Source: Rhabdophis nuchalis (taxonomy: Eukaryota > Chordata > Lepidosauria > Squamata > Natricidae). Taken from it: 64,000 nt of DNA. The notes under the pieces are model-generated. The model was not told the origin of the DNA, ran no database searches, and saw only the letters and a program-made list of their open reading frames with translations. The position numbers and the translations under genes are program-made. The stretch covers positions 139,360,962 to 139,424,961 of the forward strand of contig CM077644.1 in the NCBI GenBank assembly GCA_039707465.1. Reading direction: 5' to 3'. Numbering within the stretch: the stretch's first letter is position 1; each line of letters begins with the position of its first letter. Below, one piece after another: positions 2,430-55,300 of the stretch.

Positions 2430-5400
2430 AATCCTCCCGGTTGAGGGCACAGAACCGTTGGTTACATACGGTGAAGTGCCACAACCCCCGCTTGCTAGGT
2501 GGTCGGGAAGTACAGAGCCAGGGCTTGAGGCTGATGTTTTGCAATGCCAGGTCCGTGGTCAACAAAGCCCCCCTCGTACATGACCTTGTGTCAGAGGAGG
2601 GGCCGGACCTGGCAGGAATAGCGGAAACCTGGTTGGGCCACGAGGGTGGACTCCCCCTCGTCGAAATGTGCCCACCAGGCTACCGTGCTTTTCATCAGCC
2701 TCGGGCCCTTGGCAGGGGCGGTGGGGTAGCGGTTATTGTAAAGGAAAGTCTTGAGCTGAGAGAGACCACTGTGCCACAGACTACCGGTTGTGAGTCCCTC
2801 TGCGTGAAGTGGGGCCTAGGGAGGCAGTTGGGCGTGCTGGTTATATACCTGGCTCCCCGCTATGTAGCAGCAGCCCTGCCCGAGCTCCTGGAGGTGATCG
2901 CTACGGTGGCAGTGGAGACCCCCAGACTTTTAGTCATGGGGGACTTTAATCTGCCATCGGTGGGCGAATCATCCGAGGCAGCTCGGGAGTTCATGGCTTC
3001 CATGACGGCCATGGACCTGACCCAACTAATTTTAGGCCCCACCCACGAGGGTGGACATACACCGGATCTCATCTTTGTCTCCGGCCAGTGGAAGAGTGAT
3101 CTGGGTTTAGGGGACATAGTCATCACGCCCTTGTCATGGTCAGACCACTCACTTCTCCGGCTCGACTTTCCAACCACCACCACCCTCCGCGGGGAGGCGG
3201 AACCCGTGTCTCCAATTTGGTTCCGCCCCAGGCGCCTGATGGACCCGGATGGGTTCCAGACGGCGCTTGGGCCATTTCCTGTACCCCCGACCCGCGCCCC
3301 GATCGAGGACCTTGTGGTCGCATGGAATATTGCGGCCACGGGAGCCTTGGATCGGGTCGCGCCCTTGCGGCCTCTCTTGCGGCGGCGAGTCACCACGGCT
3401 CCCTGGTTTACCGAGGAGCTGAGGGTGATGAAACGCCGCAAGAGATGCCTAGAGAGAAGATGGAGGTCTACCCGTTCTGAATCTGACCGAACACAGGTAA
3501 GAGCCCATTTATGGACTTACATTGTGGCGCTGAGAGTGGCCAAACGTCATCATTGTGCCACCCTCATAGCATCCGCAGAAAACCGCCCTGCCGCCCTGTT
3601 TAGGGTGACCCGCTCCCTCCTTCAACAGAGGGTGCGGGAAGCCCCGCTACAGGGTAGAGCAGAGGAATTTGTGATTTTTCTGCAGGACAAAATCGCTCAG
3701 ATACAGAACGAGTTAGCCCCCATTCATGGCCCAGTGGGATGCCACGAGACAGATCTTGTTTGGGAGGAGTTTGACTCCGTTACTTCCGAGGATATGGACA
3801 GGTTACGTGGGCGACTGCGAGCCACCACATGTTTATTGGACCCGTGTCCCTCCTGGCTTGTACTGGCATCCTGGGAGGTGACACGAGGCTGGCTCCAAGA
3901 GGTTATCAACGCATCCTTGAGTGAGGGTTCCTTGCCTGCCTCCCTAAAAGAGGCTATGGTGAGGCCCCTCCTCAAGAAGCCCTCTTTGGATCCAGCTCTT
4001 TTGAACAACTATCGTCCAGTCTCCAACCTTCCCTTCTTGGCGAAGGTTGTTGAGAGTGTGATGGCACAACAGTTTCCCCGTCACCTGGAGGAAGTTGAGT
4101 ATCTAGATCCGCGCCAGTCCGGCTTTCGGCCCGGGCATAGCACCGAGACAGCATTGGTCGCGTTGGTTGATGATCTCTGGAGGGCCAGGGATGGGGGTTG
4201 TTCCTCCATCCTGGTCCTATTAGACCTCTCGGCGGCTTTCGATACCATCGACCATGGTATCCTATTGCATCGGTTGGGGGGGTTGGGGGTGGGAGGCACC
4301 GTTTTACGGTGGTTCTCCTCCTACCTCTCTGGCCGATCGCAATTTGTGTTGGCAGGAGAGCAGAGGTCGACCTCGAGACCCCTCACATGTGGGGTGCCTC
4401 AGGGGTCGGTCCTCTCGCCTCTCCTGTTCAACACATATATGAAGCCGCTGGGTGAGATCATCCGTGGTTTTGGGGTAGAGTATCATCTCTACGCTGATGA
4501 TACGCAGCTGTATATATCTACCCCAAACCACCCCAACGATGCCGTAGCGGTGATGTGCCAGTGCCTGGAAGCCGTACGGATCTGGATGGGAAGTAACGGA
4601 CTCAGACTCAACCCGACCAAGACCGAGTGGCTGTGGTTTCCGGCTGCCCGATTCAACCAGCTAACTCCATCGCTGGCCATAGGGGGCGAACATCTTGCCC
4701 CTGTGGATGGGGCGCGCAACTTGGGTGTCCTCCTAGATGCCCGGCTGTCCATGGAAGATCAAGTGACAGCCGTGGCTAGGAGGGCGTTTTACCAGGTTCG
4801 CCTGGTTCGCCAGTTGCGCCCCCTATTGGATCGGGACGCCCTTCGCACAGTCACTCATGCTCTCGTGACATCCCGACTGGACTATTGTAACTCTCTCTAC
4901 ATGGGGCTTCCCTTGAGGTGCACCCGGAGACTGCAGATGGTCCAGAACGCAGCCGCGCGGGCAATTCTGGGTACCTCTAGGTTTACCCATGTAACACCTC
5001 TCCTGCGCGAGCTGCACTGGCTGCCTGTCGTCTTCCGGGTGCGCTTCAAGGTACTAATTATCATCTTTAAAGCGCTCCATGGCTCGGGACCTAGCTACTT
5101 GCGGGATCGGATCCTGCCCCATACTTCCTCACGGCCGATTCGCTCCCACAGAGAGGGACTTCTCCGGGTGCCGTCCACTAGACTTTGTCAGCGGGCGACG
5201 CCCAGGGGAAGGGCTCTCTCTGTGGCGGGCCCTGCCCTCTGGAATGACCTTCCCCCCGACATTAGAACGACCACGGACCTCCGCTCTTTCCGTCTGAAAT
5301 TAAAAACATATTTTTTCTGCTTGGCCGGCCTGGGGTAGTCTCTCTCTATGGGGTTTTAGCTGTATAGTGGGAATTTTAGCTTAGATTGGGTATTTTAGCA

Positions 5401-8487: not shown

Positions 8488-9057
8488 GAGGTAGTCCTTG
8501 ACTTACAACCTTTCATTTAGTGACCCTTCAAAGTTACAACAGCTTTGAAAAAACTGACTTATGACTGTTTTTCACACTTACGACAGCTGCAGCAACCATA
8601 CAGTGTCACGATCAAAATTCAGATGCTTGGCAACTGGCACAGATTTATGACGGTTGCAGTGTTCTAGACTCATGCGATCACATTTTGCAACCTTCTGACA
8701 AGCAAAGTCAATGGCAAAGCCAAGTTCACTTAATAACTGTGTCACTAACTCAGAGGTCTTCAAACGTGTCAACTTTAAGACTTGTGGACTTCAACTCCCA
8801 GCTTTCTCCAGCCAGCAGAGCTGGCTGGAGAATGCTGGGAGTTGAAGTCCACAAGTCTTAAAATTGCCAAGTTTGGGGATCCCTGGGAGTTCTGGGAGTT
8901 GAAGTCCACAAGTCTTGAAGTTGCCAAGTTTGGGAACCCCTGCACTAACTTAACAACTGCAGTGATTTACTTAACAACTGTAGCAAGAAAGGTAATAAAA
9001 TGGAGAAAACAACAGACATTTTGGGCTCAATTGTGGCTGTAAGTCTAGGATTACCTG
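8488..9057. mobile_element. TA-flanked MITE (aggtagtcc family), interrupted
   Basis: It starts 'gaggtagtccttgacttac' after TA (8486-8487) and ends 'ctaggattacctg' before TA (9058-9059). Ends of about 12-15 bp are inverted repeats. The same family is at 23819-24217. The TA target points to a Tc1/mariner-type source. A hAT-like MITE (8751-8942) sits inside it. Confidence 0.65.
8751..8942. mobile_element. hAT-like palindromic MITE with 8-bp TSD
   Basis: The arms repeat 'cttgtggacttcaactcccag' in both orientations, with an extra partial right arm. Perfect 8-bp duplications CACTAACT flank it (8743-8750 and 8943-8950), the length made by hAT transposases. It is nested in the older TA-flanked MITE. 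Confidence 0.75.
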
Positions 9058-9131
9058 TAAAATACTACCAATCAGATTTTAAAAATGTATTTTTAACAAG
9101 AGAAAATGGAGAGAGAGAGAGTGCTTTAGAT

Positions 9132-9253
9132 CAGTGTTTCTCAACCTTGGCAACTTGAAGAAGTCCGGACTTCAACTCCCAGAATTCGCTGGCTGGGAAA
9201 TTCTGGGAATTGAAGTCCAGAGATCTTCAAGTTGCCAAGGTTGAGAAACACTG
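9132..9253. mobile_element. hAT-like palindromic MITE with 8-bp TSD
   Basis: The ends are 'cagtgtttctcaaccttgg' and 'ccaaggttgagaaacactg', perfect inverted repeats. Duplications CTTTAGAT lie at 9124-9131 and 9254-9261. The arms include 'ttcaactcccagaattc', linking it to the other palindromic MITEs here. Confidence 0.8.
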
Positions 9254-9454
9254 CTTTAGATTAACAATATGGAATATTTTTGTTTCAAGCAGAAAAGTAA
9301 AGTGGCAAGAAGAGCCATGAGCTGGCCCAGCCAAGGCCCAAGGTTTCATGCTCAGGGGAAGCTGAAAGCAAGGCCCAGCCCCAGCCCCAGGAAATGTCTC
9401 CAACCAAGCTGGCTTAGCTGGCTGGGGTTGGCCCATGGGTCATGCCTCTGGCAC

Positions 9455-9639
9455 TATTATGGGATTGGGAGGCTTTTCGTCACAGAGGAAAGCAAATACA
9501 TATTATGGGATGGCACAGCAGCAAAACCAAATGTGACTAGAAAAGAGGGAGGAGGGAGAAGTGGGTGGCTGAGAGTACTATGGGATGTGGTAGCTGCTGC
9601 TGCTGCTGCAGCTGGTGAGAATATTATGGGATGGCGTGC

Positions 9640-9675
<36 letters not shown>

Positions 9676-10187
9676 TGGGACTATTATGGGATAGATAACA
9701 AGCAAAAGAAAAATCCACTGAGCAGAGGGGGTGTGGTGTAAGACTGAGGATTCAGTGAGTATTATGGGCTATCTCAGTATTCAGTCAACACGCACAATTG
9801 GAAGAAACATTATGGGATATAGCTGGTCTTTCTGAATTATTATGGCGTGCTGTGGACAAGAGGGAGGAGAGCAGATTATTATGGGATGTCAGCACACAGA
9901 CAGCATGTCTGGCTGCGTCTGTTGGGACTCTGTCCAAGAGGCTGCTGCGTTTTTCTCCCTCTCCCTCTCCCTCTCTAGTCCAGCCAGTTCCAGCGTGCCC
10001 CCTCCCCTTTATCAACCGCCCTTTTGCCACCCACCCAGGCCGGCCCCCTCCGCCACTTAATCTCCTCCTTTCAATTGTCAGAACCTGTAAAGCAGGCAAA
10101 CTATTATGGGATGGCTGCTAGCAGGATGGGGGTGGGGATAGTTGCTATGCTGCAAGCAACATCTCCTCTCAGCAATACTATGGGATG
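9455..10187 (+). promoter_or_regulatory. Distal ZNF410-type motif cluster upstream of CHD4
   Basis: The motif TATTATGGGATG (reverse complement CATCCCATAATA) recurs on the + strand. Exact copies start at 9501, 9622, 9877 and 10102. One-mismatch copies start at 9455, 9576, 9682 and 10176. Weaker copies start at 9760, 9808 and 9838. DNA between the copies is unrelated, so this is not a tandem repeat. CATCCCATAATA is the published ZNF410 site. In human and mouse two clusters of it, one at the CHD4 promoter and one several kb upstream, account for nearly all strong ZNF410 binding in the genome. This cluster lies about 10 kb upstream of CHD4 exon 1 and would be the enhancer counterpart. That role is inferred. 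A (CA)n tract (9645-9672) lies inside. Confidence 0.85.
9645..9672. repeat. (CA)n microsatellite
   Basis: A run of about 14 CA units, sitting between two ZNF410-type motifs (9622 and 9682). Confidence 0.9.
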
Positions 10188-10555: not shown

Positions 10556-10690
10556 CAGGGATGTCCAAACTTGGGAACTTTAAGACTTGTGGACTTCAAC
10601 TCCCAGAATTCCCCAGCCAGCTATGCTGGCTGGGGAATTCTGGGAGTTGAAGTCCACAAGTCTTAAAGTTCCCAAGTTTGGACATCCCTG
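10556..10690. mobile_element. hAT-like palindromic MITE with 8-bp TSD
   Basis: A near-perfect palindrome of two arms of about 65 bp: 'cagggatgtccaaacttggg' to 'cccaagtttggacatccctg'. Duplications CAGTAGAC flank it (10548-10555 and 10691-10698). The little-diverged arms suggest a fairly recent insertion. Confidence 0.85.
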
Positions 10691-14296: not shown

Positions 14297-15991
<1,695 letters not shown>

Positions 15992-16088
15992 CAAATGGCT
16001 TGCAGCATCTCATATGCCCCTATTTCAAATGTGTGTATTTGTATGGTTGTTGGCAAAATAATTTGAGTAATTCTTATACAATATACAA

Positions 16089-19189: not shown

Positions 19190-20245
19190 GATTATGGGAT
19201 GTGCAGAGTCTGCATCATTTGAAGGAGGAATGGAGATTCCTGGCAGGCTTTGCTAGAGTATTATGGGATAGGCTATTGGCCCTATGCCCCCAGTGGTTAT
19301 TATGGTCTATGTGTTCAGTAGGGGGATGGGATACATTGATAACACATTTGCCAAGTGGTTTGGGGGTTGCTGTCTGTAGGAAGGTGCTGGTCCAGAGGGG
19401 TCCCTGGGTGCCTTAGACTCTGGAGCAGGGTCTTCTTTTCCTGCTGCTTTTACTTGTCAGGAGAAGAACAGTGTGACAGTGATTATTATGGGCTGCAGGA
19501 AAGGAGAGTGAGATGCAGTAAGTGCAAGCAAGCATTGTAGGCTGTGGCTAAGAGTTGCTGGTAGTATTATGGGATGTCTCACTGGCCAGAGACTATTATG
19601 GGATGCCTGGCTAAGGGGGAGGAGAGAGAGGTGAAAACGGTTGATATTATGGGATGTCCTGGGTGTGCCTATTATGGGATGCCATGGGGGCTCCCTGAAT
19701 ATTTCAGTGAGGCAGGGCTGGATGCAAAAGGGAGGGCTTGTTCTGGGATACCAGACTTGGCAGCCAGCATGCACTTATTATGGGATATGCCAGGGAAGGA
19801 GTGAGTGGGGAGAGATTGCTGTGGGTGGGTTGGAAGAGCCAGGCAAGGGGATGAGGGTAGGTAGTGGGGAATATTATGGGATGTTCAGAGCAGTGAGACG
19901 GTGCCTGTGGGAGGAGGGGGGGGGAGAAAGAAGAGAATGTGACTATTATGGGATGCCTCCATGGGGGGAAGGGTGACTATTGTGGTGTGTATGAGTAAGG
20001 GCGAGTATTATGGGATGTTTCCGCATGGGGGGAGCGTGTATTACTGGACGGTCCCCCCCGCAGGGACTATTATGGGATGTTTTGGAAAGGGGAGGGGAGT
20101 GGTTATTATGGGATGCAGAGCCGGGTTCCGAGCGGGTACTTTGGTGGGCAGAGAAGTATTATGGGATGCCTCAGTTGAGGGGGGGGTTACTGAGGTGACG
20201 GAGGTGGGACCCGTCTCCAAGGCACCGGGGGCATATTATGGGATG
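19190..20245 (+). promoter_or_regulatory. Proximal ZNF410-type motif cluster at the CHD4 promoter
   Basis: Exact TATTATGGGATG copies start at 19565, 19594, 19645, 19670, 19872, 19944, 20006, 20068, 20104, 20157 and 20234 (eleven). One-mismatch copies start at 19190, 19259, 19484 and 19776. Decayed copies start at 19298, 19978 and 20039. All are on the + strand, 25-190 bp apart, with unrelated spacers. The array ends about 140 bp before the inferred exon 1 donor. The reverse complement is the ZNF410 site CATCCCATAATA, and ZNF410 activates CHD4 in mammals through clustered sites at the promoter. Conservation of dense, same-strand sites in a reptile supports the same regulation here; binding itself is inferred. 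Confidence 0.9.
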
Positions 20246-20900
20246 GAGGCGGGAGTGCGTGGGGGGGGGACAGGGGGAGGAGCTTGGCTGGGGCTTTTTT
20301 TTTCCCCTTTAAGAGGCGGCGCTGGAGCCGGAGCCATTTTCCCTTCAGCGGCGTCGAGAAATAAGAAGCCGGGGCGCCCGGAGTCGGGTGAGGGCGGGAT
20401 GGAAGGAGAGGCCGGGGGCGGGCGGACGAACGGACAGACACCGGACAGGCGCGGGGGAGGGCAGGGCGAACGGCAGCCCCCCCCCCCCCCCAGGCTGGTC
20501 TGCCGCGCTTCCCCCGGGAGACCGCCGCCTGGCGCGCCCGAGGGAGGCGGGGTGCCTCGCCTCGGCTGCACGCCCCACCGCGAGCCCCCCTCGTGGCCCC
20601 GAACCGGCCTGGGGGGCGAGGGGGGGCCACCGCGCTGTCTACCGCGCGACCCCGGGCGGCGCACGTGTCCGGAGAGCCCTTTGGGGCTCCGCTGCTCCCC
20701 AGCCGCGCTTCCCCCTCCGCGTCCCGAGCCGGGAAAGCGGCCTTTCCTCGCCATCTCCCAGACCTGGCCTTGATTCCCGTCCCCGCCTCCCTCCCTCCCC
20801 CCGTCTCTCTCCCTCCCCCTCTCCCCGCTTCCCCCGCTTGGTTTCTGCCTCCGTGCCCACCCCCATTTCCCAGGGGGAAGCAAGTTTGCCTTGCTTCCCT
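20230..20900 (+). promoter_or_regulatory. CHD4: CHD4 core promoter and CpG island
   Basis: The sequence changes abruptly to very GC- and CpG-rich DNA, with runs of C and G. A YY1-like GCCATTTTC lies at 20333-20341, typical of downstream positions in TATA-less promoters. The last ZNF410-type motif is at 20234. Long frames across this island in several readings are compositional artefacts. The start site is not fixed by sequence and probably lies around 20290-20340. Confidence 0.7.
20310..20387 (+). other. CHD4: CHD4 non-coding exon 1 (inferred)
   Basis: A donor of good quality (gagtcgg|gtgagg) follows 20387, just downstream of the YY1-like site. Known CHD4 genes begin with a short non-coding first exon before the ATG exon. 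The 5' boundary is a guess. Exon 2 probably starts at 21391 after 'cttcatgtag' and carries the last of the 5' UTR. Confidence 0.5.
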
Positions 20901-21462: not shown

Positions 21463-49338
<27,876 letters not shown>

Positions 49339-52397: not shown

Positions 52398-55300
52398 ATG
52401 GGGCGCAAGTTGGACCCGACCCGGCAGGTAAAGCGGGGGCCAGGTCGGAAGGCCCGCAAGCAGCGTGGGGCGGAGGAGGAGCTCGCCCGCTTTTTGCCGC
52501 CCGGTAAGTCCCTCTGCCAGAATTTCGTGCCGGTGGACAACGTAGGCATTAGCCTAGGATGGTTAAAAACGATTTAGTCTGGTGGCACCTTTTCCGACTA
52601 ACCCATTTTATTCGAAGGCATCAGCTTTCGTGACATGCGATTCATCTTTCCCATGAATGAAGTGGCTGGACTCATATAGGGTTAGGGTGGGGAATTAGGG
52701 TTAGGGCAGGGGTCTGCAAAGCTGGCTCTTATAAGACTGGTGGACTTCAACTCCCAGAATTCGCCATCCTGGCTGGCTGGGGAATTCTGGGAGTTGAAGT
52801 CCACCAGTCTTAAAAGAGCCAACTTTGCAGACCCCTGGATTAGGTGGAGATCGGCTTGTTATAAAGATGGGGGTTACAGAGAGAGATTACAATCATCTTC
52901 AGAGATTAGCAATTGTATTGGGTTAAATCCCTTTGCGTTTTTTGCAGCCTTCTGAGATAGACTAAACGCCTCTGATATGGAGTCCATAGTGCTCCCTGAG
53001 CTTACTTAATTTTCCTGTGGACATTTCGTTCCCCAACCAGGTAACCTCTTCAAAGCACTTCCCATGTGGTGTATGGTGGCAGCCTGGGTGGTAACCAAAC
53101 TTCCACAAAAAAACCCCAACCAAGCTCAGGAGTAACAAGGACTCCACAATTCAACCCTGAGCTACATAGATCCTTTTCTATTGAAATCCCATAGTTTCCT
53201 AGTGGATGTTGCGTTCAAAGTCCTTTTCAAAAACAATCACTTTGAGATTTGCTGCAGAGTGACCTGGGAGCTGAGATACCCTGATATTAATTTGTCCTTG
53301 TTTTGTGATGTCTAAGAATTTATAGGCACACATTTGAGATCTTGGCTCAAAACAAGGTCAAGGTAAATATTAGGCAGGGCATCTCAGCCCATCTATAGCA
53401 GGTCTCAAAGTTACTGTTTTGAAAAAAGCAAGATTAACGTCGTTGTTTAGAAAAGAAAATGTTGAATTTATATACATCAAATGAGCTTAGCCTTTCTGTG
53501 CATTGGTTGAAGTGAGCTACAACTCACAAAGTTAATTTTTTTCCTAAAATTTATTAGTTGGAAAAACTGCTAGCAAACTCCTGGATTTTCTCTCAGGGCT
53601 GGGCACATAGATGAAACAAAATAGGTTTCAGTTCTTCCCCCTGGCCTCCAGTTTTTAGGAATGAAGATTGAATTGGATTGCTTTTTGGTGGATAGTGCAT
53701 TACAGTACATTGAAGCACAGCCTTTTTTTGCTATGGTGCCATTCCAGCACTCCACCAGCAAGTTGATTTTATGAGCTCTTTTTTCCTGTATTTGATTTAG
53801 GTAATTGAGTATTCAGAATTTTGCCTGTTGGTGTGCTTAGTCAGAAGTCAGGTTCATGTTCCTAATATTGTTCCATACCTGCTAAGGACATAACTTTGTT
53901 CAAATCTGTTATCTCAAGTGCAGGGTTGGCTTTGGGTAGGGCACTACAGTTCAAACACTGTACCGTGCTTCCCTGAAAATAAGACAGGGTCTTATTTTCT
54001 TTTGACCCACAAAATATGGCTCAGGCCTTATTATCAGGGGAGGGCTTATTGTTTGGGGTTACCGGGTGGCTGCTCTCTTACGAGCAGGCTCCCGAAGAGC
54101 CGGGCACAACCCCAGGGTCGAACGGCTGTGTTGCCATGAAGTGACCACGCTCATGAGCAGCCACCTGACAAACCCCCTTTCCAGCCGGGCACAGCGCCAT
54201 TCACTGACCTAGGGGTATCACCAAGCCGCATGAGCGTCTGTTTGCTCCCCCCCACCTCTGGCTTGGCGCCTTTGGAATGCCCCTAGGTCAGTGAATGGGG
54301 CTCTACATGCCTGGAGAGGGAGGTTGCGCAAGCGGCTGTTCCGCTCCCTGATCGCGCGTCTCCCAGCCTCATGATGCTTTTGCCCAACTCTCCCTGAAGA
54401 GCCAGGGCACCTCCGCTGCCGCCGCCATCCCAGCATGGCTTTTCCTGCGGCTTCCAAACCATGGAGGTAGGATGCCGAGTCTTCCGGCAATGGCCGCTCT
54501 GGGAATACGCTCTATGATTGTGGGCCATCTGCCGGCAGAACGTACTCCCAGAGCGTACTTATTTTCAGGACATGTCATATTTTTGGGAAAACACTTGGTA
54601 TTTCATGTAACTAAGCAATGTCTCTGCTTTCCTTTTAAGGCTAGTTGTAAGAATTCTAAGGCTGCTTGTAGTACAGTACTTGAAAACATTTGTTGACATA
54701 TTTCTATTGAGAATGAGATAAACTTCTTGCTTGCTTTCTTTGTATTTGTGTGGAACCAGAATTCTCTTGAACAAAAGTGCCAATTTTTGTTAATGTAAAA
54801 ACAGGCCATTCAAAAAGTTATGAGGGAAAGTGTTTTCTGTTGTATGTCTGCATATTTAATGTTGTGCTGGGAAGGGAAGAGATATGGAAATCAAACTGTT
54901 ATTTACTAAAAACATGTATCTTACCAAATCAGTAGCAAGATACTTCATTTTCTTGCTGTAAACTAGGAGATATTATTTGATGCACATTTTTTTCTTCATA
55001 AAAATCAGTTTTCAGTATTTAATCAATTACATGACAACCGCACTAAACGCAAATGCCATATACCGTATTTTTCGGAGTATAAGATGCACCTTTTTTCCTG
55101 GGTGCGTCTTATACATTGAATTCAGCATTTTTTGCTTGCTGAAACCCTGCCCCTTCATCAAAATGGCCACGCGCATACCCTTATGGAGGCTTTCAGAGAG
55201 CTCCTGGGGGCTGGGGAGGGCAGAAATGAGCAAAAAACAGGGCATTTTGCCCCCCCCCTCCAGCCCCCAGCAGCACTCTATAAGCCTCCATAAGACTATG

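Follow-up and report, generated by a model that had tools for sequence, protein, structure and literature searches.

Organization of the CHD4 locus

The window analyzed here is a 64-kb stretch of the genome of the snake Rhabdophis nuchalis (C2:139360962-139424961 in a 1.918-Gb assembly), and it contains the gene encoding CHD4. Using a human CHD4 sequence as the tblastn query, we placed the CHD4 coding exons on the + strand at 21472..49155, from the start codon at 21472 to the last exon detected; two of these exons encode PHD and SNF2 domains. The joined protein is 91% identical to the human sequence over 1686 of 1912 residues, with intron sequence at the ends of some of the joined pieces. Its closest relative among the best 120 of 2787 matches (E up to 0.001) is CHD4 of the corn snake, Pantherophis guttatus, and these 120 matches are all either named CHD4 or entered as unnamed, hypothetical, uncharacterized, or plain helicase proteins. 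A probable non-coding exon 1 lies at 20313..20387 on the + strand, with an approximate 5' end and a donor, GTGAGG, read by eye at 20388. A CpG-rich region spans 20250..20900, and its two parts have CpG observed/expected ratios of 0.78 and 0.82.

The first coding exon of NOP2, the only exon of that gene detected, follows at 52398..52499 on the same (+) strand as CHD4. Upstream of the window, a 376-aa open frame corresponds to LPAR5 (361.8 bits, against 228.6 for the next distinct receptor). The local gene order is therefore LPAR5-CHD4-NOP2, which is the human order as well. Traces of mobile elements are also present: two LINE-type reverse transcriptase frames (RVT_1) lie upstream of CHD4, at 2432-5335 (+), where the frame remains open for 968 aa and also encodes an endonuclease domain, and at 15081-16019 (−). 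A Tc1/Sleeping Beauty-type transposase fragment occupies 44828-45232, in the large intron that precedes the final CHD4 exon detected.

Two one-way arrays of a ZNF410-type word lie upstream of CHD4

Immediately upstream of CHD4, at 19190..20245 on the + strand, are 15 copies of TATTATGGGATG with a median spacing of 65.5 bp. Eleven are exact and four carry one mismatch, a recount identical to that of the original prediction. About 140 bp separate the end of the array from the exon 1 donor (20387/20388), and the CpG-rich region starts where the array stops; the CpG observed/expected ratio, which is 0.22 in each array stretch, rises directly after this proximal array and so marks the promoter. The 12-mer is presumably the ZNF410 motif recorded in JASPAR and obtained by HT-SELEX; in the literature searched, the letters of the motif were not found printed beside the name of ZNF410. 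With 15 copies within 1056 bp of the CHD4 promoter, the locus has the dense cluster characteristic of ZNF410-bound elements.

A second array, absent from the original prediction, lies farther upstream, about 10 kb from CHD4 exon 1, at 9455..10187 on the + strand. Its 11 copies of TATTATGGGATG comprise four exact, four one-mismatch, and three two-mismatch sites, and they provide the other feature of ZNF410-bound CHD4 elements, a distal upstream cluster. A 144-aa open frame overlapping part of this array was without a Pfam match and was discarded. Palindromic elements with arms of 60–66 nt occur on both sides of the array (8751-8885, 9127-9258, and 10556-10690), and none interrupts it; the arms of the element at 10556-10690 are 100% complementary, so that it looks like a recent insertion.

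Across the window, searching both strands and allowing up to two mismatches, we found 33 matches to TATTATGGGATG, compared with a mean of 7.99 in shuffled sequence; none of 100 shuffles reached 33. The two arrays hold 26 of these matches, and the seven outside are close to the number expected by chance. The 23 window copies that are exact or carry one mismatch all fall inside the arrays and on the + strand, with none on the − strand. A weight matrix trained on either array also recovered the other. Trained on the proximal array, the matrix found 22 places (15 proximal, seven distal, and none outside), and trained on the distal array it found 25 (nine distal, 15 proximal, and one outside, at 37655). 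These numbers depend on a lenient cut-off, placed 3 bits under the highest score reached in 10 first-order Markov shuffles, which the shuffles' own top score exceeded in three of 10 cases for the proximal matrix and at least six of 10 for the distal one.

The least expected feature of the arrays is their strict single orientation. If orientations were independent and random, the two-sided probability that all 26 copies would lie on the + strand is 3e-8.

The copies are conserved as words within unrelated surroundings

Flanking sequences of different copies are on average 0.273 identical, compared with 0.262 for pairs of random places in the arrays, and the largest identity for any single pair is 0.50, against a 99.9th percentile of 0.48. 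Spacing between copies is irregular, ranging from 25 to 225 bp, and at six periods from 10.0 to 11.0 we detected no helical phasing of the sites (smallest p about 0.13). Tandem Repeats Finder reported a motif-holding unit in neither array; its output was limited to three short microsatellites, all in the distal array. Of the 12 direct-repeat families in the two arrays, 10 include the 12-mer or a sequence close to it. The two that lack it, a 20-nt pair and a run of CA, are both in the distal array. One 18-nt inverted pair was also seen near the proximal array. Retention of the 12-mer with loss of its surroundings is what selection acting on individual sites would be expected to produce. Single orientation combined with unrelated flanks points either to an ancient tandem duplication whose spacers have been randomized or to an orientation that is itself functional.

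One preference extends beyond the core. An A occupies the position two bases 5' of it in 20 of 26 array copies, compared with 211 of 557 exact copies in the genomic background (Fisher p about 9e-5); the exact array copies taken alone have it in 10 of 15 cases (p 0.025). The HT-SELEX motif of ZNF410 reportedly has the matching T at this position.

Close pairs of the word across the genome concentrate at CHD4

The word itself is not rare: CATCCCATAATA has 572 exact copies on both strands of the 1.918-Gb assembly, compared with 66 for a reversed-word control. This asymmetry is larger than expected and may be explained by composition or repeats. Fifteen of the 572 copies are in the CHD4 arrays, leaving 557 elsewhere. 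The genome search leaves out simple repeats and very common words, so satellites are possibly undercounted in these figures and in those that follow.

What distinguishes CHD4 is close pairing. All five same-orientation pairs of the exact 12-mer separated by gaps of 13–43 bases genome-wide are at CHD4, as are six of the seven with gaps of 44–74 bases, the seventh belonging to a satellite on C1. These two scans detect the proximal array alone because exact copies in the distal array are further apart. Pairing the 10-base core ATTATGGGAT in the same orientation, at gaps of 35–65 bases, recovered both arrays: nine of 10 pairs are at CHD4 (three distal and six proximal) and one is on C12. The reversed control gave two such pairs, and opposite-orientation core pairs are absent from CHD4, their one genomic locus being an inverted repeat on C1. 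The 37 distinct background sites that we inspected (38 loci, the first listed, all on C1) are each solitary in about 3 kb. Likewise, no copy with at most one mismatch lies in six further stretches, which cover about 30 kb on the flanks of the window and about 30 kb surrounding ZNF410.

The satellite, at C1:402006087-402007202, consists of units of 32/37 bp with shared flanks and is built on TATTATGGAATG, a word one base from that of ZNF410. In about 1 kb it holds 17 copies that differ from the motif by at most one base, two of them exact, so one-mismatch density by itself is not unique to CHD4. The base changed in the satellite word is a G in 25 of the 26 CHD4 array copies. Similar motif density at many other loci had been named in advance as grounds for abandoning the original prediction; in the gap ranges scanned, close same-orientation pairs proved to be nearly all at CHD4, with the C1 satellite and one pair on C12 as the exceptions.

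The C12 pair, at C12:5954497, consists of one exact and one one-mismatch copy in the same orientation, 54 bases apart, with a two-mismatch copy 131 bases further on. A CpG-rich stretch lies about 1 kb before the pair, and an open frame of some 900 codons, which has a DUF4819 match, starts about 3 kb after it. A search of the PDB found no relative of this large frame, which appears similar to the sizeable first coding exon of Capicua (CIC) in its long isoform. Its position beside a CpG-rich region and a CIC-like gene makes the pair a possible second ZNF410 target, and it is the sole candidate that we found; it may also be a product of chance, and we treat it as a lead. A single pair is near the chance yield, given the two pairs of the reversed control and the one locus of the opposite-orientation scan, and neither of the two copies has an A two bases before the core.

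The snake ZNF410 retains nearly all base-reading residues

The ZNF410 gene is on C1 at about 75.75 Mb, in nine coding pieces that together encode all five fingers. The finger region is identical at 133 of 148 positions to that of the crystallized protein (6wmi_A). Of the 35 residues that the five fingers have at helix positions −7 to −1, one differs, an Ala to Thr change at ZF1 −5. An orthologue with conserved DNA-contact residues, on which the original prediction depended, is thus present with this one change. The residues singled out for ZNF410 in a structural review (PMC12264921), namely Val −7, Val −1, and Gln −5 of ZF2 and Lys −1 of ZF4, are all found in the ZNF410 of this genome.

Among the best 120 of 3306 relatives (E up to 0.001), 34 have no difference at the 35 positions, 55 have at least one, and in the remaining 31 a finger helix is partly missing from the alignment. 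Positions −7, −5, −4, and −1 of ZF2 to ZF4 are unchanged in 86 of the 89 listed relatives with five fingers, and this conservation extends to lungfish, coelacanth, and ray-finned fish. Candoia and Euleptes show no change at any of the 35 positions; the ZF1 Thr is common to Crotalus, Erythrolamprus, Laticauda, and Naja; the Anolis protein has one change in ZF1; and the frog protein has changes in ZF1 and at the last helix position of ZF5. Overall identity to the ZNF410 described here is 455/480 in both Crotalus and Laticauda, 426/493 in the boa Candoia, and 324/344 in both Erythrolamprus and Naja (seven pieces), values that indicate a probable caenophidian snake. The ZNF410 query had 297 matches in the genome, most of those listed being on C4 at about 3.5–31 Mb, where they form a dense set that, by similarity, apparently consists of C2H2 zinc-finger genes.

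Discussion

Two ZNF410-bound elements at CHD4 have reportedly been described in human and mouse by Lan et al. (Mol Cell, 2021) and Vinjamur et al. (Nat Genet, 2021). The abstract of Vinjamur et al. reportedly gives 27 human motifs in total, a number close to the 26 of the snake. The human distal cluster is about 6 kb upstream of CHD4, compared with about 10 kb for the distal array in the snake. Two reports likewise describe two ZNF410-bound elements at human CHD4, one clustered at the promoter and the other distally upstream (PMC9181152, PMC9426921). The snake arrays resemble the human and mouse elements in belonging to the same gene, in forming promoter and distal clusters of more than 10 copies each (counted here with up to two mismatches), and in containing almost every close pair of the word found genome-wide. 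As to orientation, every one of the 26 putative snake sites points the same way. A homotypic cluster of binding sites also occurs at the KMT2A promoter, where the sites are those of ZFP64; that case is similar in that a single site recurs many times close to a promoter, and different in its factor and gene.

We consider it very probable that these arrays correspond in the snake to the promoter and distal ZNF410-bound elements of mammalian CHD4. The original reading of the promoter-proximal region as a ZNF410-type array was borne out, with no tested point against it, and it would carry with it ZNF410 binding, an ancient origin, and near-exclusivity. We infer common ancestry with the mammalian elements, and draw this homology from layout rather than from alignment. 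Mechanistically, the five zinc fingers of ZNF410 would recognize each 12-base copy, and many close copies would ensure strong occupancy at CHD4, with solitary copies elsewhere little occupied. Bound ZNF410 would in turn raise CHD4 transcription and set the dose of the NuRD remodeller. Binding, activation, and dose control would each be expected to operate in the snake, and the near-exclusivity of ZNF410 for CHD4 may hold there too, judging from the motif side of the relationship.

Could the arrays instead be a minisatellite, the product of recent head-to-tail duplication of a unit that includes the 12-mer, without selected function? Duplication would yield the single orientation found in all 26 copies, and the genome does contain a true satellite with the related word TATTATGGAATG. 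In that satellite, however, the units are 32/37 bp long and share their flanks, whereas the array copies are irregularly spaced at 25–225 bp, their flanks are no more alike than those of random places (0.273 versus 0.262), and Tandem Repeats Finder identified no motif-holding unit in either array. On these three grounds we rejected a recent minisatellite origin, and we regard functionless duplication as highly improbable. Had the duplication been ancient enough for its flanks to be saturated, selection must have kept the 12-mers. Slightly less probable still is that the word is read by another zinc-finger protein, for example a snake-specific one, and resembles that of ZNF410 incidentally. The genome does encode many finger genes of unassigned specificity (the 297 matches, mostly on C4 among those listed); against this stand the nearly unchanged base-reading positions of the snake ZNF410 and the same two-element layout reported at human CHD4 in PMC9181152 and PMC9426921.

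Of greater weight, though we still think it unlikely, is the alternative that the sites are genuine ZNF410 sites and that ZNF410 in snakes has further target genes, reached through paired or solitary sites, in which case the one-target wiring would fail there. There are 557 exact copies outside the arrays, a same-orientation pair lies about 3 kb before the CIC-like coding exon on C12, and PMC9426921 cites human data from an erythroleukaemia line in which ZNF410 peaks number in the thousands. A turtle gonad network, according to PMC13419201, includes ZNF410 among its regulators and does not treat it as a one-gene factor. In PMC9181152, ZNF410 is presented as one of very few mammalian exceptions to the rule that transcription factors serve many genes. 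Within the snake genome, the 37 distinct background copies are solitary, a single chance pair is unsurprising beside the two of the reversed control and the one opposite-orientation locus, and both C12 copies are without the A that the arrays prefer.

We return to the reading of the arrays as counterparts of the mammalian elements. By parsimony, not by alignment, the arrangement in two clusters, the shared gene order, and the conservation of the fingers suggest that this wiring predates the split of reptiles and mammals, as originally proposed. With the same parts in the same places in snake and mammals, a circuit already in place in their common ancestor is the simplest account that we can infer from one new species together with published statements on mammals. 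Among the literature matches listed, no title or opening of an abstract mentions a CHD4 array in a non-mammal, which does not imply that such arrays are unpublished.

More tentatively, and with somewhat less than an even chance in our estimation, the polar array may be an amniote-wide or older dosage device. Its sites would be obligatorily one-way with respect to transcription and would have been kept singly for ~300 million years as the intervening DNA turned over and the recognition residues of ZNF410 were frozen by their lock to this locus. Retention of the ZF2–ZF4 residues in lungfish, coelacanth, and ray-finned fish would place the origin at the bony vertebrates. Frogs, however, have changes at helix positions of ZF1 and ZF5.

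Knock-down of ZNF410 has been used in work on raising fetal haemoglobin, according to PMC11091523, and a conserved role for the factor bears on its other actions. A snake with both arrays and near-identical fingers suggests that a circuit of one factor and one target can persist through amniote history, and its CHD4 locus offers a system for asking why the circuit has been kept, when it arose, and whether the orientation of its sites matters.
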